Of a stretch of DNA of 64,000 nucleotides, positions 1,709 to 54,579 are shown in pieces. Position 1 is the stretch's first letter. The number at the start of each line of letters is the position of its first letter. The DNA is taken from NCBI RefSeq assembly GCF_030697375.1, contig NZ_JAUYQD010000026.1, forward strand, positions 1 to 64,000, written 5' to 3'. The notes beneath the pieces are model-generated. The model made no database searches. It was given only the letters and a program-made list of their open reading frames with translations, and was not told where the DNA came from. This stretch comes from Rhodoferax sp. GTDB taxonomy: Bacteria > Pseudomonadota > Gammaproteobacteria > Burkholderiales > Burkholderiaceae_C. Position numbers and translations under genes: made by a program.

Positions 1709-1760
1709 GGCCTCCAGCCCTTATGGAACCTGCGCAAGCAGCTCCTGAATTTATAGCAAA
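1709..1760 (-). repeat. Dispersed palindromic repeat, copy 1
   Basis: Shares the core TGCGCAAGCAGCT followed by TATAGC and preceded by CTCCAGCCC with other copies in this window. It lies directly upstream of the acyl-CoA dehydrogenase start and supplies the GGAGG that serves as its likely ribosome-binding site. Confidence 0.7.
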
Positions 1761-1796
1761 ATAAAAACATTGCGAAATCGTGGAAGGTCATCCACT

Positions 1797-2498
1797 TCAC
1801 TCTGCAACCGGTTTGAAACGACTGCCGACCAATCGAAACCACCGTGATGCGGTCGACAAGGATGTATTTCGGGGCTCTGGGCCAACCATGCGCGTAGTAA
1901 TTTCAAGCAAATCCAGAGCATCACTTTGCGATGGGAGCAACTGCAATTTGACCCACGTTTGCTCACACGCACTGGGCGGAACTGCTACTGAAGATGAACC
2001 GCATGCACCCAAATTGTTTGCAAATTCGGCACGATGCAGTTCTTTCAATGTCCAACCATCAAAACGCACCAAAGAATGTACAAAATCCTCAGTCCCTTGC
2101 CCAGAACCATACTGTTCCAGCAATGCAATTTCGCCGTAACGTCCGGTGACCTCCGCGAGCCCCAAAGACCGGGAATAGTCAATTTCCCTGGCTTGTTTCA
2201 AGTTAGGTCGGTATAAAAAAGTGCCTGCTGAGAAATTACGGCCTCGGTCAGGAAACCAGACAGACACCAGCAGGCCAGTCTCCTTTTTCCCGACAGCTAT
2301 TTCATGGATGCTGCGGATCCAAATTCGCCCCCCCATATCGGCCTGGTTTTTGACCCCTTTGTTCATGGCACCAAGTAAATCCTTCTCCGATGGCCATGCA
2401 GGAACGCTGTCAGGCGCAGCCCATGCCCCTGACAGCAATGCAAAACCCAGTACGAATAGGATGCCGATGCGTTGCACCAGCCAACACACCTTGGCCAT
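1797..2498 (-). CDS. Hypothetical exported protein
   Basis: Not recognised. The ATG at 2498 gives MAKVCWLVQRIG followed by a hydrophobic stretch ending in LLSGAWAAP, a good Sec signal peptide with cleavage after AWA. An in-frame start six codons upstream (2516) is possible. The mature part of roughly 205 residues has no motif I know; it contains two Cys near LGACGSSS and PSACEQTW that could form a disulfide. The base composition is visibly less GC-rich than the flanking metabolic genes. It sits between thiolase and acyl-CoA dehydrogenase on the same strand, which suggests a later insertion into a catabolic cluster. Confidence 0.7.
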   Translation of the reverse strand: MAKVCWLVQRIGILFVLGFALLSGAWAAPDSVPAWPSEKDLLGAMNKGVKNQADMGGRIWIRSIHEIAVGKKETGLLVSVWFPDRGRNFSAGTFLYRPNLKQAREIDYSRSLGLAEVTGRYGEIALLEQYGSGQGTEDFVHSLVRFDGWTLKELHRAEFANNLGACGSSSVAVPPSACEQTWVKLQLLPSQSDALDLLEITTRMVGPEPRNTSLSTASRWFRLVGSRFKPVAE

Positions 2499-2574
2499 CT
2501 TCACCGTCCTACACACAAGCGCGAGACATGGATCGTCAAGCCTTGCGACTGCAATGGTTTAAACCCCATCCGAT

Positions 2575-3768
2575 TCACACCAACTCGATCGCCATGGCCG
2601 TCGCTTCACCCCCGCCAATACACAGCGTGGCAATGCCTTTTTTCAGACCCCGTGCCTTCAAGGCATGGATCAAGGTCACCAGGATGCGCGCACCGGACGC
2701 GCCAATCGGGTGGCCCAGCGCACAGGCGCCGCCGTTGACGTTGACCTTGTCGTGCGGAATGTCCAGGTCGTGCATCAGCGCCATAGGCACCACGGCAAAG
2801 GCTTCATTCACCTCCCACAGATCCACGTCGGCCGCGGTCCAGCCGGCCTTGGCCAACACCTTTTGCACCGCACCCACGGGGGCGGTGGCAAACCAGTTGG
2901 GTTCCTGCGCGTGCACCGCGTGGGCCACGATGCGGGCCAGCGGCTTGCAGCCCAGCTCGGCGGCGGTGGTGCCGCGCATCATCACCAGGGCGGCGGCGCC
3001 GTCGTTGATGGAGCTGCTGCTTGCAGCCGTGATGGTGCCATCTTTCTTGAAAGCGGCCTTCAAGGTGGGGATCTTGTCGAGCTTGATCTTGCCGGGACCT
3101 TCGTCGATGGACACCAGCACCTCACCGGCCCGGGTCTTCACCGCCACGGGGGTGATTTCGGCCTCAAACGCTCCATTTTGAATAGCTGCCTGCGCACGCT
3201 GCACGCTGGCCGTGGCGAAATTGTCTTGTTGTTCGCGGGTGAAGCCGTACTTGGCGGCGCAGTCCTCACCAAAGGTGCCCATGGAGCGGCCGGCCTCATA
3301 AGCGTCCTCCAGGCCATCCAACATCATGTGGTCCATGACACGGTCGTGGCCGATGCGGATACCGCTGCGGCCTTTGGGCAACAAATGCGGTGCGTTGGTC
3401 ATGCTTTCCATGCCACCGGCCACCAACACATCGGCGCTGCCAGCCAACAGCATGTCGTGCGCGAACATGGCCGCGCGCATGCCGGAGCCGCACATTTTGG
3501 ACAGGGTCACCGCCCCGGCGCTCTTGGGCAAGCCGCCCTTGAATCCGGCTTGGCGGGCAGGCGCCTGGCCCTGGCCGGCCATCAGGCAGTTGCCAAAAAT
3601 GACTTCGTTGACCAGTTCAGGCGTGAACTTGGAATTTTGACCGGCGCGCTCCACCGCCGCCTTGATGGCGGCGCCGCCCAGATCGTGCGCAGCCAGGGAG
3701 CTGAAGTCGCCTTGAAAGCCTCCCATGGGGGTACGGGCGGCGCTGACGATAACGATGGATTCGGACAT
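2575..3768 (-). CDS. Acetyl-CoA C-acetyltransferase (thiolase)
   Basis: Catalyses thiolytic cleavage or Claisen condensation of acyl-CoA. The start chosen is ATG 3768 (MSESIVIVSAARTPMGG), eight bases after AGGA; the longer open frame upstream is not needed. It has 397 residues, normal for the family. The active-site residues are visible: nucleophilic Cys93 in LSKMCGSGMRA, His353 in NGGACALGHPIGASG and Cys383 in CIGGGEA. A 30-bp perfect palindrome of LiuR type lies 38 bp upstream of the start, so the gene probably completes leucine/isovalerate degradation (acetoacetyl-CoA to acetyl-CoA), though it could also serve polyhydroxybutyrate synthesis. Residues AQAAIQN are encoded by a repeat-like stretch. 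Confidence 0.95.
   Translation of the reverse strand: MSESIVIVSAARTPMGGFQGDFSSLAAHDLGGAAIKAAVERAGQNSKFTPELVNEVIFGNCLMAGQGQAPARQAGFKGGLPKSAGAVTLSKMCGSGMRAAMFAHDMLLAGSADVLVAGGMESMTNAPHLLPKGRSGIRIGHDRVMDHMMLDGLEDAYEAGRSMGTFGEDCAAKYGFTREQQDNFATASVQRAQAAIQNGAFEAEITPVAVKTRAGEVLVSIDEGPGKIKLDKIPTLKAAFKKDGTITAASSSSINDGAAALVMMRGTTAAELGCKPLARIVAHAVHAQEPNWFATAPVGAVQKVLAKAGWTAADVDLWEVNEAFAVVPMALMHDLDIPHDKVNVNGGACALGHPIGASGARILVTLIHALKARGLKKGIATLCIGGGEATAMAIELV
3170..3205 (+). repeat. Dispersed palindromic repeat-like segment inside thiolase (copy 2, weak)
   Basis: The stretch around 3173-3196 contains CATTTTGAATAGCTGCCTGCGC, close to the repeat core. It is read by the thiolase as RAQAAIQNGAFE, which is also acceptable native thiolase sequence, so it may be a chance resemblance. 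Confidence 0.35.
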
Positions 3769-3805
3769 GGGTTTTCCTCGTGGTGGGTTAAAAAGCAAGG
3801 TGCAA

Positions 3806-3835
3806 ACAATTGACGTTTACGTAAACGTCAATTGT
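3806..3835. promoter_or_regulatory. LiuR-type operator upstream of thiolase
   Basis: A perfect 30-bp palindrome whose half-site reads ACAATTGACGTTTAC, centred between 3820 and 3821. The inner 22 bp are identical to the palindrome at 11555-11576 beside the liuR gene. LiuR, a MerR-family regulator of branched-chain amino acid degradation in proteobacteria, is known to bind TTGACGTTTACGTAAAC-like sites. The location 38 bp upstream of the thiolase start fits operator function. Confidence 0.85.
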
Positions 3836-3896
3836 GACAGAAGTTGACCCCCACAGGATTGCGGAGGCCTTGGCAGCGCACCTCCGCCGCCGCGCG

Positions 3897-5720
3897 TTAT
3901 CCCTGCTGATGGATAAAGCGCTTCTCGCGGTCGTAGGGAAACACGTCATGCACATGGCCGGCCAGGATGCGGTCCTTGTGGGTCTGCCAGAAGGCGGCTT
4001 CCAGCAGGTCGGCGTGGTGTTTCATGAACATCTCCCGCACGGCAGGGTTGCCCAGCAGGAAGGGGCCAAAGGTTTCCGGGAACACGTCTTTGGGGCCGAC
4101 GTTGTACCAGATCTCGCCCGACATTTCGTCTTCTTCGTTGCGCGGCGCGGGCACCTTGCGGAAGTTGCAGTCGGTGATGTATTCGATCTCGTCGTAGTCG
4201 TAGAACACGACCTTGCCGTTGCGGGTGATGCCAAAGTTCTTCCACAGCATGTCGCCGGGGAAGATGTTGGCCGCCACCAGGTCCTTGATGGCGTTGCCGT
4301 ACTCCACCACGCCGCGCTCGATCTGCACCCGCGCCCGCACCGCCGCTGGTGACAGGTCTTTGGCATTGGCGCCACCGGCGTCAAAGGCCTCTTGCAGGTA
4401 GATGTTGAGCGGGATCATGCGCCGCTCGATGTAGACGTGTTTGATGATGACTTCGACCTTGCCGTCACCATCGCGGTCGCTGATTTCCAACTGGCTGGGG
4501 GCGAATTTCTGGATCTCGGCAATCAGCTCATCGTCAAAGCGGTCGCGCGGGAAGCCCACTTCGCTGTACTCCAGCGTGTCGGCCATGCGCCCCACCCTGT
4601 CGTGCTGCTTCACCAGCAAATACTTGCCCTTGATCTGCTCGCGGGTGGTGTCTTTTTGCGGCGGGTAGTAGTCCTTGATGACCTTGAACACATAGGGGAA
4701 GGATGGCAGATCGAACACCAGCATGACCATGCCCTTGATGCCGGGGGCGATGCGGAACTTGTCGGTGCTGTGGCGCAGGTGGTGCAAAAAGTCGCGGTAA
4801 AACAGGGTCTTGCCCTGCTTGGCCAGACCTAAGGCGTTGTAGATTTCGTTGCGCGGCTTCCTGGGCATCATGCTGCGCAGGTACTGCACATAGGCGCTGG
4901 GAATCTCCATGTCCACCATGAAGTAGGCCCGGGCAAAGCTGAACAGCATCAGCAGGTCGTCGTCGCCAAACAGCGCCGCGTCGATCACCAGCTTGCCCGC
5001 CTTGTTGTGCAGCACCGGCAGCGCAAACGGGAACTCGTTGAATCCGTTGATGAGCTTGCCGACGATGTAGCAGCCCTTGTTGCGGAAAAACAGGCCGGTG
5101 AGCACCTGGATCTGGAAGTTGGCGCGCAGCGTGGCGTCGCCCAGACGCTCGGCCATGGCGGTGGCGACCAGGGCGGCGTCGCGCTCCAGGTTGGCAAAGG
5201 CCAGGCGCAGATCAAAATCCTGCACCATGCGCACCAGCACTGCCTGCATGGTTTCGCGCGTCGGGTAGTAGCAGTGGTAGGTGGGGCGTTTCTCGGACTC
5301 GTCGTTTTCGATGTACTCGGTGCTGACCGCCGGGCGCACAAAGATGAAGTCGTTTTGAAAGTAGCTGCGGTGCAGGATCTTGGTGGTGACCGAGTTGAAA
5401 AAGGTTTCCGCCAGCTCGGGCTGGTGGTGGTTGACCAGCAGGCCGATGTAATGCAGCTTGATTTGCTGCCAGATGTCCATGGACTGCTCGCCGGCCTTGA
5501 ACTCGCGCTCCAGCCGGTTAGAGCATTCCTTGACCCGCAGGTCGTAAAACTCGATGCGCTCGCGCTGCGCACGCTGCTGGCCGTGCCAGTCGGCGGTCTC
5601 GAAGCGGTGCTTGGCGCGGGCCGACTCGGTGCGAAACAGGCGGTAGTGGCGGTTGAAGCCGTCCATCATCGCCTTGGCGACGTCATAGGCAATAGAAGAG
5701 TCCAGACGGGTAGGAAACAT
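3897..5720 (-). CDS. aceK: Isocitrate dehydrogenase kinase/phosphatase
   Basis: Bifunctional enzyme that phosphorylates and inactivates, or dephosphorylates and reactivates, isocitrate dehydrogenase to divert isocitrate into the glyoxylate bypass. It has 607 residues, close to the usual 580-600. Recognition rests on the N-terminal helical regulatory region ([21 protein letters not shown]), the ATP-binding loop region [21 protein letters not shown] around residue 325, and the protein-kinase-like part with [16 protein letters not shown] and [21 protein letters not shown] precedes the ATG. No aceA or aceB lies in the window. The gene stands alone; a repeat copy lies between it and the carbonic anhydrase gene upstream. 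Confidence 0.96.
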
Positions 5721-5733
5721 GAGAACGACCTTA

Positions 5734-5783
5734 TGCTATGTTTTTGGTAGCTGCTTACGCACTATCTACGGGGGCTAGACGCC
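5734..5783 (+). repeat. Dispersed palindromic repeat, copy 3 (near-complete)
   Basis: One of the fullest copies: GCTATG, spacer, GGTAGCTGCTTACGC, spacer, CTACGGGGGCTAGACGCC. It is intergenic between the aceK start (5720) and the carbonic anhydrase stop (5797). Used here to define the plus orientation of the family. Confidence 0.85.
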
Positions 5784-5796
5784 TTTTTTGTATAAA

Positions 5797-6456: not shown

Positions 6457-6465
6457 GGTGGATTC

Positions 6466-8472: not shown

Positions 8473-8474
8473 GC

Positions 8475-8523
8475 CATGGTTTCAGCGAACAATTCTCGAC
8501 CGATGAGCATACGGCGGATTTCG
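8475..8523. repeat. 49-bp direct repeat, left copy (relic of ivd 3' end)
   Basis: Exactly identical over 49 bases to 9431-9479, which is the 3' end of the ivd gene. On the minus strand this copy reads through the ivd C-terminus ([14 protein letters not shown]) and then Ala-stop, the stop TGA overlapping the ATG of the sulfatase-like gene at 8472. It marks the pre-insertion junction. Confidence 0.95.
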
Positions 8524-9427: not shown

Positions 9428-10606
9428 CTACATGGTTTCAGCGAACAATTCTCGACCGATGAGCATACGGCGGATTTCGCTGGTACCGGCGCCGATCTCG
9501 TACAACTTGGCGTCGCGCCACAAACGGCCCAGCGGGTATTCGTTGATGTAGCCGTTACCACCAAAAATCTGCACACCCTCGCCGGCCATCCAGGTGGCTT
9601 TCTCGGCCGTCCACAAAATCACCGAGGCGCAGTCCTTGCGCACCTGGCGCACATGCTCCAGCCCCAACAGGTCCAGATTTTTGGCCACGGTGTAGGCAAA
9701 GCTGCGACCGGCCTGCAGCACGGTGTACATGTCGGCGACCTTGCCCTGGATCAGCTGGAATTCACCAATGCTCTGGCCAAACTGCTTGCGGTCGTGGATG
9801 TAGGGAATCACGTTGTCCATGACGGACTGCATGATGCCCAAGGGGCCGCCGGTGAGCACCGCGCGTTCGTAGTCCAGCCCGCTCATCAGCACCTTGGCGC
9901 CGCCGTTGACGCTGCCCAGCACATTGGCCAGGGGCACTTCCACGTTGTTGAACACCAGCTCACCGGTGTGGCTGCCGCGCATGCCCAGTTTGTCGAGCTT
10001 TTGCGCGATGCTGAAGCCCGGCATGCCCTTTTCGATCAGGAAGGCGGTGACGCCGCGGGCGCCCAGCTCGGGCTCGCTCTTGGCGTAGACCACCAGGGTG
10101 TCAGCGTCGGGGCCGTTGGTGATCCACATTTTGTTGCCGTTGAGCAGGTAATAACCGCCCTTGTCTTCGGCCTTGAGCTTCATGCTCAGCACGTCGGAGC
10201 CAGCCCCGGGCTCGCTCATGGCCAATGCGCCCACATGTTCGCCGCTGATCAGCTTGGGCAGGTATTTGGCGCGCTGGGCCTCGGTGCCATTGCGCTTGAT
10301 CTGGTTGACGCACAGGTTGCTGTGCGCGCCGTAGGACAGGCCCACGCTAGCCGAGGCGCGGGAAATTTCTTCCATGGCGATCATGTGGGCCAGGTAGCCC
10401 ATGTTGGCGCCACCGTATTCCTCGCCCACGGTGATGCCCAGCACGCCTAGGTCACCCATCTTGCGCCACAGGTCCATGGGGAACTGGTCGTTTTTGTCAA
10501 TCTCGGCGGCACGGGGGGCGATCTCGGCTTGCGCAAATTCGCGCACCGCGTCGCGCAGGGCGTCAATGTCTTCACCGAGTTGGAAATTCAGGCCGGGCAG
10601 GTTCAT
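9428..10606 (-). CDS. liuA: Isovaleryl-CoA dehydrogenase
   Basis: Oxidises isovaleryl-CoA to 3-methylcrotonyl-CoA in leucine degradation, passing electrons to ETF. The start chosen is ATG 10606 ([18 protein letters not shown]), after GGAGAC; the open frame extends much further upstream but overlaps the thioesterase gene. It has 392 residues. The isovaleryl-specific catalytic base is visible as Glu247 in [13 protein letters not shown], and the C-terminal site that carries Glu in other acyl-CoA dehydrogenases reads [12 protein letters not shown] (Gly), as in true isovaleryl-CoA dehydrogenases. The last residues ETM and stop TAG come from an insertion junction; the relic copy at 8475 suggests an ancestral ETMA end. 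Confidence 0.96.
9431..9479. repeat. 49-bp direct repeat, right copy (functional ivd 3' end)
   Basis: Identical to 8475-8523. This copy is contiguous with the rest of ivd and still encodes its C-terminus. The offset between copies is 956 bp, the size of the inserted unit that carries the hypothetical lipoprotein gene. Confidence 0.95.
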
Positions 10607-11491: not shown

Positions 11492-11554
11492 AAAGTGTTT
11501 GGTACCAGGGCGACAGTCTTCTCGGAAGCTGCCCCCTACAATGTGCCGAATCAG

Positions 11555-11576
11555 TTGACGTTTACGTAAACGTCAA
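11555..11576. promoter_or_regulatory. LiuR-type operator in divergent liuR/hydrolase promoter
   Basis: A perfect 22-bp palindrome of the half-site TTGACGTTTAC, centred between 11565 and 11566, 64 bp upstream of liuR and 26 bp upstream of the divergent hydrolase ATG. Identical in its core to the site at 3806-3835. Confidence 0.88.
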
Positions 11577-11601
11577 TTATGTCGCAAAAAGAGAATTCAC
11601 C

Positions 11602-15604: not shown

Positions 15605-16612
15605 CTACTTCCAGCGCGGCACCAAGTCGTCCTTGAGCTGTCCGCGCAGGTCCGCGTAGTCGGGCACCACCGAGCGCACGGTGTCCCAAAACCGGGGACT
15701 GTGGTCCATCACCCGCAGATGGCTCAGTTCATGCGCCACCACATAGTCGATCACCGGTTGGCGAAAATGTATCAGGCGCCAGTTCAGGCGAATAGAGCCA
15801 TCGGTGCGGGCGCTGCCCCAGCGGGTGCCGGCATTGCTCAGACCCAAACGGCGCCATTGCACCTGTAGGAGCGGCGCAAAATGGTCGAGCCTTTGTTTGA
15901 AATTCTGTTGCGCCTGGCGCATCAACCAAGCCTGCACCGCATCGCGTATTTGTTCGGGACTGGCGGATTTGGACAGTCCCACCCGCAAGGTGTGCAGCCC
16001 CATGGGCAACCCCAGTGCGTTGGTGGGTGCTAGGTCCAGTTGCGCACCCGCGGCCTTGAAGGCATGGGTCGGGTCCAGCAGCACCATCACACTCTCGCCC
16101 AAAAACGGCAGCTCCGCGCCGTCTCGCCACACGATCTGCGCTTCGTCCCGGCGATTTTGGCGCTCACGCGTCTCGCCGAGTTTGCGAAGGACCCAAAGTG
16201 CCTTCTCTTGCAAGGCCGCCTCCACCTCGAAAATCGGCGTCCATTTGGGAGCACGCACCACCAGACCATCGGGGCCCACCACGAACCCAATGGTGCGGCG
16301 TTTGGCGCGTTCAAAAACATAGGCCACCACGGCATTGGCCAGCCGCGCTTCCCGGTTGGCACGCGGATGCACAAAGCGGGCAGGCGCGATGGCCTGACCG
16401 AGGGTCTGCACTGGCAGCGCCATCCGCTCCGGCGTCACATTTGCTATGTTTTTAATAGCTGTCTGCGCAGGCTCCACGGGGGCTAGAGGCATAAATGATC
16501 CATCATCTTTACCCGTTGGGGGCTTGCGAGCACGCACAGGCGACGGCGCCTGGGCCACCGGTACGGGCAAGGCATCAAACAGGTCCAGCGTGTACTTCAG
16601 CAAAGGATGCAT
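15605..16612 (-). CDS. YgjP/WLM-type zinc metallopeptidase
   Basis: Predicted metal-dependent hydrolase of the YgjP (DUF45, M48-like) family, 335 residues. The zinc motif HELSHLRVMDHSPRFW (HExxH plus downstream His) is at the C-terminus, preceded by WRRLGLSNAGTRWGSARTDGSIRLNWRL, the typical family core. The N-terminal 60 residues are not conserved; residues PLAPVEPAQTAIKNIAN (about 42-58) are encoded by a dispersed palindromic repeat read in frame. It lies 48 bp downstream of plsC on the same strand. Confidence 0.9.
   Translation of the reverse strand: MHPLLKYTLDLFDALPVPVAQAPSPVRARKPPTGKDDGSFMPLAPVEPAQTAIKNIANVTPERMALPVQTLGQAIAPARFVHPRANREARLANAVVAYVFERAKRRTIGFVVGPDGLVVRAPKWTPIFEVEAALQEKALWVLRKLGETRERQNRRDEAQIVWRDGAELPFLGESVMVLLDPTHAFKAAGAQLDLAPTNALGLPMGLHTLRVGLSKSASPEQIRDAVQAWLMRQAQQNFKQRLDHFAPLLQVQWRRLGLSNAGTRWGSARTDGSIRLNWRLIHFRQPVIDYVVAHELSHLRVMDHSPRFWDTVRSVVPDYADLRGQLKDDLVPRWK
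16442..16490 (+). repeat. Dispersed palindromic repeat, copy 4, inside the YgjP gene
   Basis: Near-complete copy: GCTATG, spacer, AATAGCTGTCTGCGC, spacer, CACGGGGGCTAGAGGC. The metallopeptidase reads its complement in frame as LAPVEPAQTAIKNIA with no stop. Confidence 0.85.
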
Positions 16613-24632: not shown

Positions 24633-24705
24633 ATAGGGGTAGGGACGGACACGGTCCTCCCCTACCTCCGAACCGTGCGTGCGGTTTTCCCGCACACGGC
24701 TCTCC
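24633..24705 (-). mobile_element. Group II intron remnant: domains V and VI only
   Basis: On the minus strand, 24702-24670 folds as a textbook group II domain V: an 8-bp lower stem GAGCCGTG/CACGGTTC containing the AGC triad, a 2-base CG bulge, a 5-bp upper stem TGCGG/CCGCA and a GAAAA loop (33 nt). Directly 3' lies a GC-rich domain VI hairpin (GGTAGGG paired with CCCTACC) with an A eight bases before the intron end CCCCTAT. Nothing 5' of about 24705 is intron; the mosaic insertion sequence abuts there. The ribozyme is therefore dead. Between 24501 and 24632 I see no gene. Confidence 0.85.
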
Positions 24706-34634: not shown

Positions 34635-35180
34635 TCAAGGCAACCACTTCTTCAACATGGCGGCGTCGGGCGGGCCAATGCTGCGCTGCACCGAGCCCTT
34701 GCGCCCCAGCAGCACGATGTAGGGGGTGACGTTGGGCCACTTCGGGTCCACGCTTTGGCGGATGGCGGGCTCAAAACCGTCAAAGGCGTAAAACCGGGTG
34801 GCGCCTCCAAAGTGGTGGGCATGGGCCAAGGCGCGCTCGCCCTGCACGTCCATCATCACGGCGGCCAACTCCACTTTTTGGTGCGATGCGGCGATGAAGG
34901 TCTGCAGCTTGTGGAAGGCGTCCGGGCAGGTGGGGCAGTAGCTGGTGGTGAACACATAGGCCGCCGGGCGCGGACTGCTTTTGAGCAGCTGGGCCCAGGT
35001 GGTTTCATCAAAATCCGTTACCGATGCTACGGTATTGATAGCTGCTTGCGCTTTATGGACGGGGGCTACAGGGGTATTTGACCATGCAAACAAGGGCGCG
35101 GCGGCCGCCAGCAGAAGCCCACGCCGCGTGGTGCGCAGCCATGCCGCCGGCAAGGGCGACCACTCAGAACGTGATGTCAT
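34635..35180 (-). CDS. Thioredoxin-like protein with CPTC motif, exported
   Basis: Last gene of the copper locus. The start is ATG 35180 (MTSRSEWSPLPAAWLRTTRRGLLLAAAAPLFAW), with a twin-arginine-like export signal, giving 181 residues. The thioredoxin-fold part has AYVFTTSYCPTCPDAFHKL (Cys82, Cys85) and ends in a cis-Pro region (NVTPYIVLLGRKG), so redox or metal-delivery activity is likely. The start overlaps the BNR gene stop by 17 bp. Residues VAPVHKAQAAINTVA, just after the signal, come from a dispersed palindromic repeat read in frame. Confidence 0.82.
   Translation of the reverse strand: MTSRSEWSPLPAAWLRTTRRGLLLAAAAPLFAWSNTPVAPVHKAQAAINTVASVTDFDETTWAQLLKSSPRPAAYVFTTSYCPTCPDAFHKLQTFIAASHQKVELAAVMMDVQGERALAHAHHFGGATRFYAFDGFEPAIRQSVDPKWPNVTPYIVLLGRKGSVQRSIGPPDAAMLKKWLP
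35025..35071 (+). repeat. Dispersed palindromic repeat, copy 6, inside the thioredoxin-like gene
   Basis: Near-complete: GCTACGG, spacer, TGATAGCTGCTTGCGC, spacer, GACGGGGGCTACAGG. Read on the minus strand in the same frame as copy 4 (VAPVHKAQAAIN). Confidence 0.85.
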
Positions 35181-36468
35181 GGACTTGCACCTCGGTTGTA
35201 TTGCGCCACACCACCGCCATGCGCGGACCCTGCTGCACCAGGCGGGGGAAGTCGTTGTCACCCTGCACCTGGCCCAGGGTCTGCAGGCGAAAGCTCTGGC
35301 CCCCATCGGTGGACAACCAGGCCTTGAGCGTGCTGGTCCTGCCGTCGATGCTGCGCCAGACCACGGCCACGCGCGGGCCATGGGCCATCACGTCCGCATG
35401 CTCGGCCCGTTCATCGGGCAGCAGGCGCACCGTACCCGGCTGCGGGCTGCCATCGGCATGGAGCCGACCGTAGCGCACCCCCGCCACGGGGTCCCGGCCC
35501 TGCTGGCGAATGCCGAACCACACCGTGTGAAAACCGTCGCCCGCCGCGGCCAGGCCGGGGCCGTGGTGCGGACAGCCATCCACACGCCATTCATCCAAGG
35601 TGGCGCGCACGATGGGCGGCTGGGTGGCCGGTGTCAAGGCGACCAGGGCGTGGTCGCGCACATTGGGGTCAAACACATGGCGCCACATGGCGCGCAGCAC
35701 CCCGTCGCTGCCCTGCGCCACCGCGATACGGCAGCATTCGCAGGAGTGGTCCGCCACTTTGAGGTCCGGGCCGAAGGTGGCGCCGCCATCGGTAGAGACG
35801 TTGCGGTAAATAGCGGCACCGCGGTAGCTGGATTTACCCGCCACCTTGGGCGCGGCTTCCAGGTCGCGCTTGTCGATCCAGACGGTGTGCAATACGCCTT
35901 GGGCGTCAAAGCCCAGCGACTCAAAGCGGTGGGTGATGATCTGGCGGTCGGCATGTACGGTATAGGGCACAGAAAAGGTCTGGCCCGCGTCCACCGAACG
36001 CAGCATGCGCACATAGCCGGTATTGGGCTTGGCCAAGGGCTGGGTGTAGGCAATCAGCACCGTGGCACGGGGGCCAAACAGCAGCTTGGGGCGATTTTCG
36101 CCATCGGCCGAGATGGCGTCGCCGGCCGTATCCAACACCCGCGGGGCACTCCACTGCAAGGCGGCGGCCCCCACCGGCAAAGGCGCACTCTGGACAAACA
36201 ACTGGCCTTCGGCGTTGAGCCCGACCAGCCACAAGGCGCCGTCCGGCGCCACGGCAACGCCGGTGCCCAGCTGGGGCCGGGGTTTGCGCGCCCCCGGTGT
36301 GCTGGTACTGGCTGCGGCCACGGCAGGCGAAGCCGCCGCAGCCGCCACCTCGGCAGCTTGCGGGTGGGTGCTGTGTTGCGCCCAACTGGTGGCACACAAG
36401 ACCAGGCTGGCCGCCAGTACGGCCACCCGCCTGCAAACGGGGAACTTGAATCGTTGAAAAAACATCAT
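35164..36468 (-). CDS. Exported BNR-repeat (sialidase-like propeller) protein of the copper locus
   Basis: A 434-residue secreted protein: Sec signal about 10-31 (VAVLAASLVLCATSWAQ), an Ala-rich linker, then a beta-propeller with Asp-box-like repeats (SVDAGQTFSVP, STDGGATFGPD, STDGGQSFRLQ). No sialidase catalytic Arg triad or Tyr could be assigned, so a glycosidase role is doubtful. The motif HSCECCRIAVA near residue 235 is a Cys/His cluster that could bind copper. It lies 24 bp downstream of exbD, within the TonB/copper operon. Confidence 0.82.
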   Translation of the reverse strand: MMFFQRFKFPVCRRVAVLAASLVLCATSWAQHSTHPQAAEVAAAAASPAVAAASTSTPGARKPRPQLGTGVAVAPDGALWLVGLNAEGQLFVQSAPLPVGAAALQWSAPRVLDTAGDAISADGENRPKLLFGPRATVLIAYTQPLAKPNTGYVRMLRSVDAGQTFSVPYTVHADRQIITHRFESLGFDAQGVLHTVWIDKRDLEAAPKVAGKSSYRGAAIYRNVSTDGGATFGPDLKVADHSCECCRIAVAQGSDGVLRAMWRHVFDPNVRDHALVALTPATQPPIVRATLDEWRVDGCPHHGPGLAAAGDGFHTVWFGIRQQGRDPVAGVRYGRLHADGSPQPGTVRLLPDERAEHADVMAHGPRVAVVWRSIDGRTSTLKAWLSTDGGQSFRLQTLGQVQGDNDFPRLVQQGPRMAVVWRNTTEVQVHDITF

Positions 36469-40682: not shown

Positions 40683-40759
40683 GGTATTTCCTAAAATTCT
40701 TAGACGAAATCAGCCTCCAGCCCATACAAAACAAGCGTGAGGCGCTATACATTCGATAG

Positions 40760-41152
40760 CTAAAGGAAATACGGCGGGCCGCGTGGCGCAGCCGCCAGAT
40801 CAAAAGGCGTGGAGTAAAAAAAGCCAAGCCGCGCCACAGGCACGGGGGGAGCGCCCGGTACCCGCAGGGGCATACCCCAGGGCAAAGGCGGCGGCGCCAT
40901 GCGGTCGGAGGCCTGCAGGCAAAACGGGCAATGCGCCAGTGGCACTGCGGACTGCGGTCCTGCGGGCGCATCCGGCGACGGGTGGAAGACCCCGGCACTG
41001 GCGCAGAGGTCCGTCCCCATGCCCACACCGCTGCCGGCCAGCGCCAATCCATGGGACAGCGTGGGGGCCAAGGCCGCGAACACCGCGATGAGCAGCACCA
41101 ACCACACCGCCCAGGTGCGGTGCGGCAGGTGAATGCGCGGTTTCAGGGCCAT
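40760..41152 (-). CDS. DUF2946 family protein 1
   Basis: A 130-residue protein with one N-terminal membrane anchor (TWAVWLVLLIAVFAALAPTLSHGLALA), a short periplasmic region with Cys in GTDLCASAG, and the family signature AHCPFCLQASDRMAPPPLP. DUF2946 members recurrently sit with TonB copper receptors and PCu(A)C chaperones and are suspected to bind copper through the CxxC pair. It begins 20 bp after PCu(A)C and ends 77 bp before the receptor start. Confidence 0.82.
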   Translation of the reverse strand: MALKPRIHLPHRTWAVWLVLLIAVFAALAPTLSHGLALAGSGVGMGTDLCASAGVFHPSPDAPAGPQSAVPLAHCPFCLQASDRMAPPPLPWGMPLRVPGAPPVPVARLGFFYSTPFDLAAAPRGPPYFL

Positions 41153-41676: not shown

Positions 41677-41780
41677 AAAGAGTCCTTGGTCAACAGAGAA
41701 TCAATGGAAATAGGCGCAAGCACCCACGGTGTGCATAGTCTGCAAAATCGCAGAACAAAAGTGGAGGTATGCCGCACAGA

Positions 41781-41814
41781 GACTGCGCAAGCAGCTGTAA
41801 AATCAGTAGCAAAA
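41781..41814 (-). repeat. Dispersed palindromic repeat core, copy 7 (intergenic)
   Basis: Contains GACTGCGCAAGCAGCTGTAAA then AGTAGC. It lies between the PCu(A)C start and the second DUF2946 gene. The GGGGGCTAG side is missing. Confidence 0.7.
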
Positions 41815-41832
41815 GTGCGCTGCGATCATCTG

Positions 41833-44557: not shown

Positions 44558-45703
44558 ATGTTGCACACCCTTCTCCGTTTTACCCAAAAACCCTCCGCCG
44601 GCCATGCGCCCCGGCAGTGGCCCCGTTTGGCCCTCCTCACCGTGGGCGTCTTGCTGGGGCATGGGGCCGTGTTGATGGCGGCACCGCTGTCCCTGGGCGC
44701 GTCGGCAGAGCCGCGCAGCACCGAAGCGCTTCGCTTTACCTTCCGCACCGTCGCCCAGACGCCGCCCGGCGCCCTTGCCGACACCCCGGTGCCAGAAGTC
44801 AAGCCAGCATCGGCGCTCAAGCGGAGCCCGCCAGCGCTGGCGACCGCCCCGCCCATCGCCGCCCCCGGGGCCTCGCAAAAATTTAAAGCCATTCGAGCCG
44901 AAACACCCGCCAACAGTGCGCAGACAGCTCCTGAATTGATAGCAAAAGAGAGCCCCCTGGGTGAACCCATGGCACTGGCCGCGTTGGCCCCCACCGCAGC
45001 GCGGGTGGAAACAGCCCCAGCGGCGGCGACGCCCCCAGCGGCCGCCGACCTGGCGGTGCACCACTACACCATTCCGGGGGCCGCGCGCCTGAGTTATGAC
45101 GTCAAGATTGAAATCAAGGGCATCCCCTTGTCGGCCAACGGTGAGTTGCTGTGGCAGCACGACGGCAAAACCTACGATGCCCGGCTGGAATACCGCCACG
45201 TCTTGCTGGGCTCCCGGGTCCAGACCAGTACTGGCCAGCTCACCCCCCTGGGGCTGGAGCCGGTTCGTTTTGGCGACAAGGTGCGCAGCGAGGTGGCGGC
45301 CCATTTCGAGCGCAGCAAAAACAAAGTCACATTCAGCGCCAACACCCCAGACGTTCCCTTGCTGCCCGGCGCGCAAGACCAGTTGAGCGTCTTCATGCAG
45401 CTGGCCGCCATGCTGGGAGGTGCACCCCACCGCTTTGCCGCCGGCACGGACATCCCTTTTCAGGCCGTGGGACCACGCTCCTCGGAAACATGGACCTTCA
45501 AAGTGGGCGCCGTGGAGCTGCTGACCCTGCCCGGTGGGGCCGTCAAAGCGCTCAAGCTCACACGCGACGCGACCGGAGAACACGACTCCAAGGGTGAAGT
45601 CTGGTTTGCCCCGGACCTGGGTTACCTGCCTGTGCGCATTCGGCTGTCCCAGGCGAATGGCGATTTTGTCGAACAGCAATGGCGCGCCACGCAAAAACCT
45701 TAA
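44558..45703 (+). CDS. DUF3108 domain protein, membrane-anchored
   Basis: Starts at ATG 44558 (MLHTLLRFTQKPSAGHAPRQW), 381 residues. One membrane anchor (LALLTVGVLLGHGAVLMAAP), a long Pro/Ala linker to about residue 165, then the DUF3108 beta-rich domain (ARLSYDVKIEIKGIPLSANGELLWQHDGKTYDARLEY to LGYLPVRIRLSQANGDFVEQQWR). Probably an envelope protein; function unknown. A degenerate dispersed repeat lies in the linker, read as NSAQTAPELIAK. Confidence 0.82.
   Translation: MLHTLLRFTQKPSAGHAPRQWPRLALLTVGVLLGHGAVLMAAPLSLGASAEPRSTEALRFTFRTVAQTPPGALADTPVPEVKPASALKRSPPALATAPPIAAPGASQKFKAIRAETPANSAQTAPELIAKESPLGEPMALAALAPTAARVETAPAAATPPAAADLAVHHYTIPGAARLSYDVKIEIKGIPLSANGELLWQHDGKTYDARLEYRHVLLGSRVQTSTGQLTPLGLEPVRFGDKVRSEVAAHFERSKNKVTFSANTPDVPLLPGAQDQLSVFMQLAAMLGGAPHRFAAGTDIPFQAVGPRSSETWTFKVGAVELLTLPGGAVKALKLTRDATGEHDSKGEVWFAPDLGYLPVRIRLSQANGDFVEQQWRATQKP
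44887..44946 (-). repeat. Dispersed palindromic repeat, copy 8, degenerate, in DUF3108 linker
   Basis: Diverged copy retaining AGTGCGCAGACAGCTCC and TTGATAGCA. It is translated in the same frame as copies 4 and 6 (AQTAPELIA). Confidence 0.6.
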
Positions 45704-49740: not shown

Positions 49741-50712
49741 ATGAACGTCGCCCCCACCCTTCTCGCTTCGCGTAGCACGCTGCCCCCCGAGGGGGCGCCC
49801 CTTGCCTCGGGGCGGCCCAGCGGCAATGGCAGCGCCCGCATCCCCCCCATCCAGTGCCTGCTGACCTTCGAGGCCCTGGCCCGCCTGCGCAGTGTCACCC
49901 AGGCCTCCGAAGAACTGTGCGTGACCCCCAGCGCCGTGAGCCACCGGGTGCGCCAGCTGGAGCAGATCATCGGCACCAAGCTGTTTGGGCGGGCCGACTT
50001 TTCCCTCACCACCGAGGGCAGTGAATACCTGGCCCATGTGCGCGAAGGCCTGGCGTCACTGCAAAAGTTCCCCTCGTCGGCCGCCGCACCCGGCAAACGC
50101 AAGCTGCGCCTGGCGGTGACCCCCACCTTTGCCCGCTCCATCCTGATCCCGCGCCTGCGCCAGTTCACCGAGGCCTATCCAGAGATTGACCTCACGCTGC
50201 AGGTGTCCATCCCGCTGCTGGATGTGGTGGCCGAAGACGCCGACCTGATGGTGCGTTTTGGCCCGGGCCGTTATGCCGACATGGAGCATGTCTGCCTGAT
50301 GAAGGACGAGGTCACACCCCTGGCCTCGCCCGCCTTCGTGCGCGAGCACGGGCCGTTCGAGTCGGCGCAGGACCTGGACAACCTGCCCCTGCTGCGCAGC
50401 CCGCTGGAGCCCTGGCGCACCTGGTTTGCCGCGCGGGGCTTGGACTGGCCGGAGCCCATCGACGGTTCGCAGTTCAATGACATCGGCCTGATGTGCGACT
50501 GCGCCGCCGCCGGCATGGGCATCGGCCTGGTGCGCCTCAAGCTGGGCGCGCCCTGGCTGGACAACGGCTCCCTGGTGCGACTGGGCAGCAACGACGTTTT
50601 CGGCAAAGACGTGCCCAGCCCCCACGCCCACTACCTGTGCTGGCGCACCGGCATGATGGACCGCTGGGAGTGTGCGGCGTTTGCGGAGTGGTTGAAGAAG
50701 GTGGTGGTGTAA
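49741..50712 (+). CDS. LysR-family transcriptional regulator
   Basis: Starts at ATG 49741 and has 323 residues. The helix-turn-helix is IPPIQCLLTFEALARLRSVTQASEELCVTPSAVSHRVRQLEQIIG, followed by the periplasmic-binding-like effector domain (LRLAVTPTFARSILIPRLRQF onward). It is GcvA/TrpI-like. The first 35 residues (LASRSTLPPEGAPLASGRPSG) precede the helix-turn-helix and are encoded by a GC-rich repeat (49752-49826); a start nearer IPPIQ is not available as ATG. The target is unknown; the divergent psd or the downstream glcD gene are candidates. Confidence 0.9.
   Translation: MNVAPTLLASRSTLPPEGAPLASGRPSGNGSARIPPIQCLLTFEALARLRSVTQASEELCVTPSAVSHRVRQLEQIIGTKLFGRADFSLTTEGSEYLAHVREGLASLQKFPSSAAAPGKRKLRLAVTPTFARSILIPRLRQFTEAYPEIDLTLQVSIPLLDVVAEDADLMVRFGPGRYADMEHVCLMKDEVTPLASPAFVREHGPFESAQDLDNLPLLRSPLEPWRTWFAARGLDWPEPIDGSQFNDIGLMCDCAAAGMGIGLVRLKLGAPWLDNGSLVRLGSNDVFGKDVPSPHAHYLCWRTGMMDRWECAAFAEWLKKVVV
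49752..49826 (+). repeat. GC-rich intergenic-type repeat within LysR N-terminus
   Basis: Contains CTTCGCGTAGC, GCTGCCCCCCGAGGGGGC and CCTCGGGGCGGCCCAGCGGC, a hairpin-forming sequence that I recall as common between genes in Comamonadaceae. Here it lies in the psd-lysR divergent region and is read as the first 30 residues of the regulator. Only one copy is in this window. Confidence 0.5.
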
Positions 50713-50807
50713 GGCCGCGGGATTTCACACAGGCGTGCAAGTTTCTTCACACCACGGCCCTCCCATTTGCCTTAGAGTCCCCAGCAAAGACACAGGAGCC
50801 GCCCTTC

Positions 50808-52310
50808 ATGCACGCCACCCCGCCCGCATCCGCCACCGAATTGCTACAAAAAAAGGAGCTGCTTGCGCAGGTACTGCGCGGGCTGGAACCACATTTACCC
50901 CAACATTCCCTGCTCTACCACACGGAAGACACCACGCCCTATGAATGCGACGGCCTGACCGCTTACCGCGAGCGCCCGCTGCTGGTGGCGCTGCCCGAAA
51001 CCGAGGCCCAGGTGCAGGCGGTACTGAAGACCTGCCATGCCCTGAACGTGCCGGTGGTGGCGCGCGGCGCGGGCACCGGGCTGTCGGGCGGCGCCATGCC
51101 GCACAAGCTGGGGGTGACGCTGTCGCTGGCCAAGTTCAACAAAATCATCCAAGTGGACCCGCGCAGCCGCACGGCGGTGGTGCAGTGCGGCGTGCGCAAC
51201 CTGGCCATCAGCGAGGCGGCGGCGCCCCACGGCCTGTACTACGCGCCCGACCCCAGCAGCCAGATCGCCTGCACCATCGGCGGCAATGTGGCCGAAAACT
51301 CGGGCGGGGTGCACTGCCTCAAATACGGCCTGACCCTGCACAATGTGCGCAAGGTGCGCGGCTTCACCATGGAGGGCGAACCCATCACCTTTGGCTCGGA
51401 CGCACTGGACGCCTGCGGCTACGACCTCTTGAGTGTGGTGGTGGGCAGCGAAGGCATGCTGGCCATCATCCATGAAGTCACCGTGCAACTGATCCCCAAA
51501 CCGCTGCTGGCGCGCTGCATCATGGCCAGCTTTGACGACATCCGCAAAGCGGGCGATGCGGTGGCGGCGGTGATCGCAGCCGGCATCATCCCGGCCGGCC
51601 TGGAGATGATGGACAAACCCATGACGGCGGCGGTGGAGGACTTTGTGCACGCCGGCTACGACCTGACGGCCGAGGCCATTTTGCTGTGCGAGAGCGACGG
51701 CACGGTGGAGGAGGTGGAGGAAGAAATCGGCCGCATGAGCGCGGTGCTGCGCACACACGGCGCCACCGCCATTGCCGTGAGCCAGAACGAGGCCGAACGT
51801 TTGAAGTTCTGGAGCGGGCGCAAAAACGCCTTTCCGGCCAGCGGGCGCATCAGCCCGGACTACATGTGCATGGACTCCACCATTCCGCGCAAGCGCCTGG
51901 CCGATATCCTGCTGGCGATCCAGGAGATGGAGAAAAAGTACCAGTTGCGCTGTGCCAACGTGTTCCACGCGGGCGACGGCAACCTGCACCCCTTGATCCT
52001 GTTCGATGCGAATGACCCCGACCAACTGCGCCGCTGCGAGCTGTTTGGCGCCGAGATTCTGGAAACCAGCGTGGCCATGGGCGGCACCGTCACCGGCGAG
52101 CACGGCGTGGGCATCGAGAAGCTCAACAGCATGTGTGTGCAGTTCAGCCCGCAAGAAAACGCCCAGATGATGGGTGTGAAGCTGGCCTTCGACCCCCAGG
52201 GTTTGCTCAACCCCGGCAAGGTGATTCCCACCCTGCAGCGCTGTGCCGAGTACGGCAAGATGCTGGTGCGCGGGGGCAAAATTTCTCACCCGGACTTGCC
52301 CCGGTTTTAG
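50808..52310 (+). CDS. glcD: FAD-linked oxidase, glycolate/D-lactate dehydrogenase GlcD type
   Basis: Flavoprotein of 500 residues starting at ATG 50808 after AGGAG. The FAD-binding PCMH domain contains PVVARGAGTGLSGGAMPHKLGVTLSLAKFNKI and IACTIGGNVAENSGGVHCLKYG; the C-terminal FAD-oxidase domain has FHAGDGNLHPLILFDA and GTVTGEHGVGIEKL. This is the GlcD pattern; glcE and glcF are normally adjacent but are absent here, so partners must be elsewhere or it acts alone as a 2-hydroxyacid dehydrogenase. Residues LLQKKELLAQ near the N-terminus come from a dispersed-repeat core. Confidence 0.9.
   Translation: MHATPPASATELLQKKELLAQVLRGLEPHLPQHSLLYHTEDTTPYECDGLTAYRERPLLVALPETEAQVQAVLKTCHALNVPVVARGAGTGLSGGAMPHKLGVTLSLAKFNKIIQVDPRSRTAVVQCGVRNLAISEAAAPHGLYYAPDPSSQIACTIGGNVAENSGGVHCLKYGLTLHNVRKVRGFTMEGEPITFGSDALDACGYDLLSVVVGSEGMLAIIHEVTVQLIPKPLLARCIMASFDDIRKAGDAVAAVIAAGIIPAGLEMMDKPMTAAVEDFVHAGYDLTAEAILLCESDGTVEEVEEEIGRMSAVLRTHGATAIAVSQNEAERLKFWSGRKNAFPASGRISPDYMCMDSTIPRKRLADILLAIQEMEKKYQLRCANVFHAGDGNLHPLILFDANDPDQLRRCELFGAEILETSVAMGGTVTGEHGVGIEKLNSMCVQFSPQENAQMMGVKLAFDPQGLLNPGKVIPTLQRCAEYGKMLVRGGKISHPDLPRF
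50842..50870 (+). repeat. Dispersed palindromic repeat core, copy 9, inside glcD
   Basis: Contains TGCTACAAA, spacer, GGAGCTGCTTGCGCAGG. It is translated as LLQKKELLAQ, the same frame as copy 10 (LLSNLELLAH). Confidence 0.6.
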
Positions 52311-52391
52311 CCCAAGAGCTTTCTATAATGGGCCGGCCTCCAAGCCGGAGGCAGATTTCCATAATTCACAAAATCTCAGGAAGAATTCCCT

Positions 52392-52688: not shown

Positions 52689-52706
52689 GCCACCTTCAGC
52701 GCAACA

Positions 52707-52735
52707 AAAGCCCTTCCTTCGAAGGGCTTTTTTTT
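52707..52735 (+). terminator. Rho-independent terminator after bor
   Basis: Stem AAAGCCCTTC paired with GAAGGGCTTT, a four-base loop and a T8 tract ending at 52735, 19 bp after the bor stop. The A-run on the other side may let it also serve the convergent carboxyltransferase gene. Confidence 0.9.
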
Positions 52736-52737
52736 GC

Positions 52738-54579
52738 CTACCAGGCATCCACACTCGGCCCCGTCCAAGGCCCCACCTTGGCCGATTGCAGGCCCGCCAC
52801 CAGCCACGGCCGGGTTTGCGCCGGGTCGATCACGGCGTCAATCTCCAAGGTGGTGGCCATGGGGATCGCGCCGCCGTTGTCATACTGGCGTGCCAGCAGA
52901 TTCTGAAACAAGGCCTCGCGCTCAGGGCCTGCGGGCACGGCTTCCAGCTCCTTTTTAAAGCCCAGGCGCACCGCGCCCTCCAGCCCCATGGCGCCAAACT
53001 CGCCGGTGGGCCAGGCCACGGTGAACAGGGGCGCATGGAAACTGCCCGCCGTCATGGCCATGGAGCCCAGGCCGTAGCCCTTGCGCAGCACCACACTGAA
53101 AAACGGCACGCGCAAATGGGCGGCGGCGATGAACAGGCGGCTCACATGGCGCACCTGGGCCTGCGCTTCGGTGTCCGGCCCCACCATGAAACCGGGCGTG
53201 TCCACCAGGCTCACGATCGGCAGGCCGTGGGCGTTGCACAGTTGCATAAAGCGCGCGGCCTTGTCGGCGGCATCGGCGTCGATGGCGCCGCCCAGGTGCA
53301 GCGGGTTGTTGGCCATGAGGCCCACTGGGCGCCCTTCGATGCGGGCCAGCGCGGTGTGGATGCCCACCCCAAAGCCGATGCGCAACTCCAGCAGGCTGCC
53401 CGCATCGGCCAGCCCCCGCAGCGCGGCACGGGTGTCGTAGACGCGCAGGCGGTTTTCGGGCACCACCTCGCGCAGGGCGTGCGCGGGCGGCGCGGTCCAG
53501 CTAGGCGCCGTGCCTTGGAAAAAGGACAGGTAGTGCTGGGCGGCGGCCACGGCCTGGGCCTCGTTCTCCACCAGAATGTCGATCACGCCATTGCCATGCT
53601 GCACGGCGCTGGGGCCGATTTGTTCGGGTTTGAACACGCCTAGGCCCCCGCCCTCCACCATGGCCGGGCCACCCATGCCGATGTTGCTGGCGCGGGTGGC
53701 GATGATCACGTCGCTGCAGCCCAAGAGTGCGGCGTTGCCGGCAAAACAGCGCCCGGCCACGATGCCCACCACGGGCACCTGGCCGTTGAGGCGGGCAAAA
53801 CTGGCAAAGGTGGCGACGTGCAGCCCGGCCACGATGGGCATGTCCACATCGCCGGGGCGCCCGCCGCCGCCTTCGGCGAACAGCACCACGGGCAATTGGT
53901 TTTGCAGGGCGATTCCCAGCATGCGGTCGGTCTTCTGGTGGTTGCGCAGGCCCTGGGTGCCGGCCAGCACGGTGGCGTCGTAGGCCATGACCACGGTGCG
54001 CTGGCCGTTCACACAGCCGATGCCAGTCACCATGCCGTCGGCCGGGGTGTTCTGGACCAGGTCGTCGGCGCTGCGCCGGCGGCTCTGGGCCGCCACCGCC
54101 AGCGCGCCGTACTCGACGAAGGAGTCCGCGTCGCACAGGTCGGCTACGTTCTCGCGGGCGCTGCGCAGGCCCTGCGCGTGGCGCTTGGCCATGGCTTCGG
54201 GGCGGCTGGCGTCCAGGGTGTGGGCATGGCGCTGCTGGACCTTGCGCAAATCGGCACGCGGCGCATCGGCGTGGTCGGGTAGCGCGGGTGGTGCAGGGCT
54301 GGCGCCGGGTTGGGAGGGGATTTTATTGGTCTTTTCTGCCTCTAGCCCTTGCGGAATATGCGCAAGCAGCTCTAAATTTGATAGCAAATCACCTTCTGCC
54401 ACCGCTTCTCCGGCGGCATAGAAATGGAACTGCACCCGCCCCGCCTGGGGTGCGTGCACTTCGTGTTCCATCTTCATGGCCTCCAGAACCAGCAGCACGT
54501 CGCCAGCGGCCACGGCCTCGCCGGGCTGAACCAGCCATTGCACCAATTGCGCCTGTAGGGGGGATCGAATTTCTAGCAT
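52738..54579 (-). CDS. Biotinyl-domain/carboxyltransferase fusion (acyl-CoA carboxylase type)
   Basis: Starts at ATG 54579 (MLEIRSPLQAQLVQWLVQPGE), 613 residues. Residues 1-75 are a biotinyl carrier domain with the biotin-accepting Lys36 in LEAMKMEHEV. After a linker of about 60 residues (part of it, LLSNLELLAHIPQGLEAE, from a dispersed repeat), residues about 135-610 form a carboxyltransferase of the acyl-CoA carboxylase beta type (GMVTGIGCVNGQRTVVMAYDATVLAGT, GGGGRPGD, GGPAMVEGGGLGVF, LVDTPGFMVGPDTEAQAQVRHVSRLF). No biotin carboxylase gene is near, so its partner must be elsewhere. The substrate acyl-CoA is unknown. Confidence 0.88.
   Translation of the reverse strand: MLEIRSPLQAQLVQWLVQPGEAVAAGDVLLVLEAMKMEHEVHAPQAGRVQFHFYAAGEAVAEGDLLSNLELLAHIPQGLEAEKTNKIPSQPGASPAPPALPDHADAPRADLRKVQQRHAHTLDASRPEAMAKRHAQGLRSARENVADLCDADSFVEYGALAVAAQSRRRSADDLVQNTPADGMVTGIGCVNGQRTVVMAYDATVLAGTQGLRNHQKTDRMLGIALQNQLPVVLFAEGGGGRPGDVDMPIVAGLHVATFASFARLNGQVPVVGIVAGRCFAGNAALLGCSDVIIATRASNIGMGGPAMVEGGGLGVFKPEQIGPSAVQHGNGVIDILVENEAQAVAAAQHYLSFFQGTAPSWTAPPAHALREVVPENRLRVYDTRAALRGLADAGSLLELRIGFGVGIHTALARIEGRPVGLMANNPLHLGGAIDADAADKAARFMQLCNAHGLPIVSLVDTPGFMVGPDTEAQAQVRHVSRLFIAAAHLRVPFFSVVLRKGYGLGSMAMTAGSFHAPLFTVAWPTGEFGAMGLEGAVRLGFKKELEAVPAGPEREALFQNLLARQYDNGGAIPMATTLEIDAVIDPAQTRPWLVAGLQSAKVGPWTGPSVDAW
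54337..54389 (-). repeat. Dispersed palindromic repeat, copy 10, in carrier/carboxyltransferase linker
   Basis: Near-complete: TGCCTCTAGCCCTTGCGG, ATATGCGCAAGCAGCTC, TTTGATAGC. Read by the gene as LLSNLELLAHIPQGLEA, at the end of the biotinyl domain and start of the linker. Confidence 0.85.

Follow-up and report, generated by a model that had tools for sequence, protein, structure and literature searches.

A dispersed repeat of Comamonadaceae genomes, found between genes, in reading frames and beside RAYT genes

Introduction

A short sequence recurs across a 64,000-nucleotide stretch of Rhodoferax sp. DNA (assembly GCF_030697375.1, contig NZ_JAUYQD010000026.1, positions 1 to 64,000; "the window" means this whole stretch), sometimes between genes and sometimes inside unrelated coding sequences, and it raises the question of what kind of element can come to occupy both. 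A sequence-only reading had listed ten copies with a shared core and a flanking palindrome, and had likened them to the palindromic elements of Rickettsia. We favor, with a probability of roughly 0.55, the view that the repeat is a non-autonomous element of about 70 nt resembling the repetitive extragenic palindromes (REPs), and that it is probably served by a REP-associated tyrosine transposase (RAYT).

Repeat unit and copy number

The shared core is more frequent than chance predicts. The window holds 19 core matches with at most two mismatches against 4.3 expected, and none of 100 shuffles reached 19. A model trained on ten aligned window copies (nine of those listed earlier and the one starting at 40707) finds all ten again at E below 2e-19, together with a match at 3163-3223 scoring 27.8 bits. 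Because the same copies trained the model, the window matches are circular, and the independent test is sequence outside the window. The pattern GCTA-N10-AGCTGCTTGCGC, with at most one mismatch, occurs 336 times genome-wide against 0 for the reversed pattern, and the model search of the genome returned at least 150 matches (150 scored of 4858 candidates). A position-specific profile of 61 columns, made from 54 copies, gave 61 copies in 464 kb and 0 in reversed sequence at 15 bits. When 80 kb were added, the resulting 544 kb contained 68 copies at 20 bits or more against 0 in reversed sequence; all 54 training copies (44 checked, 10 from the window) are among these 68. Scaled to the 5.78 Mb genome, this corresponds to an estimated copy number of about 700.

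The dispersed repeat and its excess over chance are thus borne out, and of the ten copies listed, nine belong to it convincingly. The copy given at 3170, in a thiolase gene, is doubtful, and one at 40707-40767 had been overlooked. The suggestion that the thiolase copy might be a peptide-encoding insert is probably wrong: two Pfam domains align there without a 20-residue insertion, and the sequence is probably native.

The conserved unit measures about 70 nt, beginning about 4 bases ahead of GCTA and ending about 18 past GAGGC (profile positions about 4 to about 73), with the consensus TTTTGCTAT-N7-ATAGCTGCTTGCGCA-N3-TCTACGGGGGCTAGAGGCCTATTTGAC..AAAA. It is asymmetric, has a GC content of about 47%, and occurs mostly as single copies whose mean identity to the consensus is 74% (61 copies); fragments and half copies are few. 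The consensus contains two hairpins, a short palindrome GCTAT/ATAGC and a TGC/GCA hairpin, and its right end is weakly conserved.

Distribution among genomes

In an order-level scan of 300 genomes, more than two pattern matches were found only in the same family, with 50, 29 and 19 matches in three of the eight family genomes drawn besides the source. Among 299 genomes of the family, counts range from 0 to 345, and by hand count 61 genomes have at least 10 matches. One exact pattern searched across named genomes returned 104 stretches; the genus-named records belong to Polaromonas, Rhodoferax, Curvibacter, Hylemonella and Giesbergeria, all Comamonadaceae, and to one Acidovorax marked contaminated, and the rest are unclassified bins. 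The relative used most below, G648 (Burkholderiales bacterium RIFCSPLOWO2_12_FULL_61_40), aligns with the window over long stretches, at 78-94% identity (mostly at least 85%).

The core spelling varies by genome among the matches listed (CTCGCGC, CTTGAGC and CTAGCGC in G509, G578 and G553, within one mismatch), which suggests separate amplification within lineages. Spread via plasmids was considered and rejected, as one of 72,556 plasmid records matched, and weakly, when one copy was used as query.

Placement in and between genes

Genes were placed with a simple purpose-made gene caller (coding fraction 0.89). Of the 61 copies in 464 kb, 31 are intergenic, 25 lie inside genes and 5 are partial. 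Intergenic copies avoid divergent gaps: 30 of the 31 could be placed, and they divide into 23 tandem, 6 convergent and 1 divergent, against 122, 15 and 50 for all gaps longer than 60 bp. They also gather behind genes, with 17 of 33 within 15 bp of a 3' end and 4 within 15 bp of a 5' end.

Such placement, together with the hairpins in the consensus, would be expected of a structured RNA element (a terminator, stabilizer or regulator) that had spread for its function. Orientation behind genes is about balanced (8 and 9), no Rfam match reached the gathering threshold, and the palindrome arms form a perfect 5-bp stem in 21 of 61 copies and at least four pairs in 45 of 61. Nor do the arms co-vary convincingly, since 37 and 40 of 500 shuffles reached the covariation score and the number of pair types. 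The palindrome noted earlier belongs to the consensus, without convincing co-variation in its arms; we rejected a maintained hairpin and regard an RNA function as the origin of the repeat as very improbable.

Inside genes the repeat is often readable as peptide, as had been claimed. The in-gene copies score lower than intergenic ones (mean 52 vs 64 bits, p 0.005), and 20 of the 25 use two of the six frames, same-strand frame 1 in 12 and antisense frame 1 in 8. Stop codons alone would not produce so strong a skew. Of the 31 intergenic copies, 17 are open in same-strand frame 0 and 14 in antisense frame 0, and 1 and 0 in-gene copies use these frames; two further frames, open in 1 and 0 of the 31, are each used by two in-gene copies. 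Typical encoded peptides are xAIxxIAACAxSTGARGLF and xxxLAPVxxAQxAIxxIAxx. The AQ(A/T)A(I/P) reading emphasized earlier is one of the two favored frames (8 of 25), and the commonest is xAIxxIAACAxSTGAxG (12 of 25). Within the window, seven copies had been assigned to coding sequence. The gene caller places six there (thiolase, YgjP, thioredoxin-like, DUF3108, GlcD and biotinyl carboxyltransferase), and the copy at lnt falls within the gene only from the longest start.

Presence, absence and insertion

Individual copies are present in some genomes and missing from others. The YgjP site holds a copy in 19 of 30 loci of the genus (the source's own included), in constant orientation; the thioredoxin-like site in 6 of 8 (own included); the carboxyltransferase site in 9 of 22 and the GlcD site in 14 of 20 (own excluded in both). 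An intergenic site beside YgjP is cleanly empty in one locus (L232) and filled in three (L231, L233 and L239), the net difference being 6 bases. Another conserved intergenic site, seen in other genera, is filled in six stretches and empty in four.

Against G648, 18 copies of the source genome were probed. For eight (counting the doubtful thiolase copy), the flanks match and G648 also has a copy; one, at 71567, has a G648 copy at the corresponding place with poorly matching flanks, and nine lack a comparable flank pair. The DUF3108 copy belongs to these nine, and protein alignment revealed it as the one difference: the G648 orthologue, 57% identical and 4 residues longer, lacks it.

How copies enter proteins is less uniform. 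For five proteins, which contain six in-gene copies between them, sequences of solved structures served as comparison. A TlyA-like protein has 40 unaligned residues starting in the copy where its homologue has 6, and at its copy a CCA/poly(A)-polymerase-like protein is 18 residues longer. The alignment of a ROK kinase shows no gap across its copy, nor does that of Uup across its first copy, with 12 fewer residues directly behind; the second Uup copy falls outside the aligned part. Phosphoglucose isomerase is near length-neutral, having 2 residues fewer than one homologue, and relative to another 8 extra residues offset by 7 fewer downstream. Among relatives, the MoeA-like and YgjP copies appear inserted, and copies in GlcD, a dioxygenase-like protein, a LysE-like protein and a 997-residue dehydrogenase-like protein (two copies) are length-neutral within two residues (protein names assigned by eye). 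Linkers at the carboxyltransferase site are similar in length with or without a copy. Over all 208 comparisons with copy-free proteins, which are not independent and in many cases of low identity, the most frequent outcome was an unchanged length (31 rows). The expectation that orthologues would reveal clean presence or absence thus holds for presence itself, with YgjP and the carboxyltransferase as examples, and fails for GlcD, the ROK kinase and Uup, which are not clean insertions.

The length-neutral copies may reflect overwriting, an insertion offset by a compensating loss, or an old copy that has decayed. It is conceivable, though we think it rather doubtful, that within genes the repeat often overwrites resident DNA of equal length, as if a single-stranded repeat annealed and was incorporated in the manner of an oligonucleotide. 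Segments of about 20 residues would then have been rewritten, not inserted, in conserved proteins such as the ROK kinase, Uup, GlcD and perhaps phosphoglucose isomerase.

Length-neutral sites and the in-gene frame preference would also fit a functional DNA signal, such as an uptake sequence or a chromosome-organizing site, that arose by selection or biased uptake and not by copying of a unit. The genome-specific core spellings and the near absence from plasmids agree with this, as does the lower divergence of the core than of its flanks between the source and G648 (25/266 vs 221/1359, p 0.004). That comparison comprises seven copies, and its result hints at constraint or homogenization. The clean empty sites speak against a signal. 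So does the lack of any continuum of partial matches, for 68 matches in 544 kb score at least 5 bits and the same number at least 20 bits, and isolated halves number 2 and 3 at 15 bits. Known uptake signals are, moreover, much shorter than this repeat. With scores so bimodal, an uptake-sequence origin was rejected, and a DNA signal of any kind seems to us improbable. Hypervariable loops or gene conversion between copies were likewise set aside, because loops differ at 27/133 positions (20.3%) and flanks at 221/1359 (16.3%; p 0.22, thiolase copy excluded).

Association with RAYT genes

The source genome has three Y1_Tnp genes. One of them (L175) lies between two direct copies of the repeat, and so does its 88% relative in G648 (L359). 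The L175 protein scores 69.5 bits against the NCBIfam model for REP-associated tyrosine transposases, below the cut-off of 80, and by eye contains an HUH-like motif (NHVHLL) and a tyrosine motif (YIELNPVRAG).

Copies are also enriched just downstream of RAYT genes elsewhere. Counting as a flanking copy any partial profile score above 0 within 110 bp of the RAYT 3' end, we found an opposite-strand copy at 10 of 28 loci where the genome has 15 copies or more (11 of 29 once L175 is added) and at 0 of 21 where it has four or fewer (Spearman 0.41, p 0.003). In a second set, with loci obtained via named records, 12 of 26 have such a copy; at least one locus belongs to both sets. Same-strand copies downstream of a RAYT number 0 of 50 and 0 of 26, and genes in general have a 3' copy in 21 of 262 cases (8.0%, RAYTs included) and 13 of 378 (3.4%).

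These observations are consistent with a scheme in which the repeat has multiplied within Comamonadaceae genomes as a non-autonomous chromosomal unit with short consensus hairpins. It would be processed by the host's own RAYT-type transposases (Y1 HUH enzymes), which act on single-stranded DNA and whose genes are in many cases closely followed by a copy. Intergenic copies would be retained often right after stop codons and seldom in divergent promoter gaps. In-gene copies would be retained where they can be read, and the two frames that dominate there yield small or hydrophobic residues; the frame bias may reflect what proteins tolerate as peptide. Such copies would presumably be translated and contribute stretches of about 20 residues to the protein, either added or substituted.

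Several points weigh against a repeat moved by RAYT enzymes. G648 has eight of the 11 window copies, between flanks that match, so that little recent movement is seen and turnover, with one difference, looks slow. Simple insertion would not lead one to expect the length-neutral copies found in several genes. Neither a terminal inverted repeat (TTTTG/CAAAA at most) nor, at the empty sites, a target duplication could be established. The first RAYT set combines the 30 best matches with 20 loci picked for high copy number, and its members are related, not independent. A RAYT is found in 278 of 299 family genomes, most of them without many copies, and is too widespread to predict copy number, an idea we therefore dropped; conversely, G547 (100% complete, 41 copies) has no RAYT match at 1e-20. 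In copy-rich genomes, over half of the RAYTs lack a downstream copy scoring above 0, and at 4 and 3 of 50 RAYTs (for the two strands) the copy lies upstream instead. The L175-type RAYT of G653 has no flanking copy, that of G663 has one weak copy, downstream only, and the third Y1_Tnp gene of the source genome (L176) has none. The better-conserved elements of RAYT flanks are a TGTCCC box and GGGGTCAGATTCC-like inverted repeats. The RAYT-side copy usually runs into that box and not into its own TTTGCT end, and is degenerate at many RAYTs; it could accordingly be one old insertion carried along.

The mismatch between RAYT presence and copy number, the case of G547, and the frequent degeneracy of the RAYT-side copy, with its length kept in many RAYT flanks, suit a miniature transposable element that a different transposase moves and whose copy beside the RAYT was a single ancient insertion inherited with the gene. 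The unit ends, which loosely fit TTTTG...CAAAA, suit it as well. Copy-bearing RAYTs occupy differing gene contexts, as judged by eye, which speaks against this reading. We take this alternative seriously and still consider it unlikely. A RAYT-served, REP-like element is preferred because of the 3'-flank enrichment beside RAYT genes and the position of L175 between two copies.

A very abundant repeat family thereby joins the few known cases of a mobile repeat that supplies protein sequence. Since related genomes carry or lack single copies, they offer a natural series for following how proteins absorb 20 foreign residues. The same series should be useful for asking whether RAYT enzymes move REP-like DNA, which to our knowledge has not yet been demonstrated in cells.

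Relation to known repeats

REPs and REPtrons, as described in PMC3733652, form GTAG/CGTC families with RAYT or TIRYT genes, some lie in genes, and the Rickettsia elements are counted among them. The Comamonad repeat resembles them in its hundreds of chromosomal copies (336 pattern matches, where more than 100 per genome are expected of a REP), in its 3'-end and convergent placement, in its in-gene copies and in its position beside Y1 HUH transposase genes, on both sides of L175 and at 10 of 28 and 12 of 26 loci, not at the remainder. It differs in size (about 70 nt against 20-40 bp), in its asymmetric unit, in the large share of in-gene copies and in the tag: CTAC occurs at columns 39-42 in 6 of 61 copies and within columns 31-61 in 17 of 61, and GACG in 7 of 61. 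Close inverted pairs typical of REPs are also rare in these mostly single copies, with four pairs less than 200 bp apart among 400 copies (some loci overlap), three of them inverted. Two inverted pairs, 78 bp apart, are listed in genome G204. At locus L171 (2463-8174), four copies lie within a local array whose segments are partly duplicates of one another, with 87-96% identity over 66-178 bases for most pairs.

GGGGWSAS repeats accompanying RAYT-like genes are described in PMC3733652 as well, and repeats of this type (GGGGTCAG) stand beside RAYTs here too. Many RAYT genes of the family (L183-L226, L359-L384) are flanked by the TGTCCC box and GGGGTCAGATTCC-like inverted repeats, resembling the TIRYT structures of that paper.

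The likeness to Rickettsia palindromic elements (RPE-1, RPE-4 and RPE-6, cited in PMC3733652) is upheld as a way of working, by description: both occur as in-frame peptide segments in unrelated genes, here in 25 of 61 copies and with extra residues in the TlyA-like and CCA/poly(A)-polymerase-like proteins. The Comamonad repeat differs from what the available description states of them in belonging to another bacterial class, in being about half intergenic and in having some length-neutral in-gene copies. A beta-proteobacterial repeat, BRE, has according to the available part of PMC3110155 a length of 75-91 bp, 69% GC in Bordetella, tandem arrays, some copies in genes, and hosts that include Polaromonas and Rhodoferax (4 copies in R. 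ferrireducens T118, 29 in Polaromonas JS666). The hosts and the in-gene copies are shared; identity with BRE was rejected by description, since the present repeat is mostly single with about 47% GC. The failed size and tag tests for REPs and the unmatched BRE description lead us to treat the repeat as a separate family within a known kind, REPs beside RAYT genes. The available main text of PMC3733652 names no Rhodoferax, Polaromonas, Acidovorax or Comamonadaceae, and the taxon names were not found in the available part of PMC6006769. No description of the repeat was found in the open-licence literature searched, where two of four core strings occur once each, in papers unrelated by title.

The enterobacterial RU mobile repeats with open frames (PMC2759123), known to us by description only, are reportedly 103-168 bp long, found in genes and proposed to form peptides. 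They are likewise small mobile sequences in genes, though longer and in other hosts.

Copies and other features of the window

The window copies are collected in the table below. The thioredoxin-like product has no Pfam match and owes its name to the first reading of the sequence.

Copies of the repeat in the window (gene coordinates and strands in parentheses)
Feature	Position	Strand	Context and remarks
Repeat copy	1704-1764	-	Intergenic, abuts 5' end of acyl-CoA dehydrogenase gene (575-1705 -, Pfam); model 69 bits, profile 71.5
Doubtful copy	3163-3223	+	In thiolase gene (2575-3798 -); 27.8 bits; present in G648 too; probably native coding sequence
Repeat copy	5728-5788	+	Intergenic, adjoins aceK (3897-5720 -); common to G648
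Repeat copy	16436-16496	+	In YgjP-like metallopeptidase gene (15605-16612 -, Pfam), antisense, reads FMPLAPVEPAQTAIKNIANV
Repeat copy	22701-22761	-	At lnt 5' end (21231-22853 -), forming either a leader or an N-terminal extension
Repeat copy	35019-35079	+	In thioredoxin-like gene (34635-35381 -), antisense
Repeat copy	40707-40767	-	Intergenic by simple gene caller; model 56.3 bits, profile 50.6; common to G648
Repeat copy	41757-41817	-	Intergenic; common to G648
Repeat copy	44890-44950	-	In DUF3108 gene (44558-45703 +), residues 111-131, ahead of domain (206-370); not in G648 orthologue
Repeat copy	50836-50896	+	N terminus of GlcD-like FAD oxidase (50808-52310 +), sense, reads ELLQKKELLAQVLRGLEPH; copy-free orthologues shown equally long
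Repeat copy	54332-54392	-	Between biotinyl and carboxyltransferase domains (52738-54615 -), sense, reads DLLSNLELLAHIPQGLEAE

Other repeats share the window. A second GC-rich repeat of about 75 nt at 49751-49827, possibly the published BRE, has nine scattered matches in G648 and a clean empty site there at the corresponding place. Identical 49-base direct repeats lie 956 bases apart at 8475-8523 and 9431-9479; G648 appears to keep one of them, without the 907 bases between. Two near-identical palindromes with the core TTGACGTTTACGTAAACGTCAA, at 3804-3836 and 11549-11581, are perhaps an operator, and a group II intron match of 55.9 bits is located at 24633-24704 on the minus strand.

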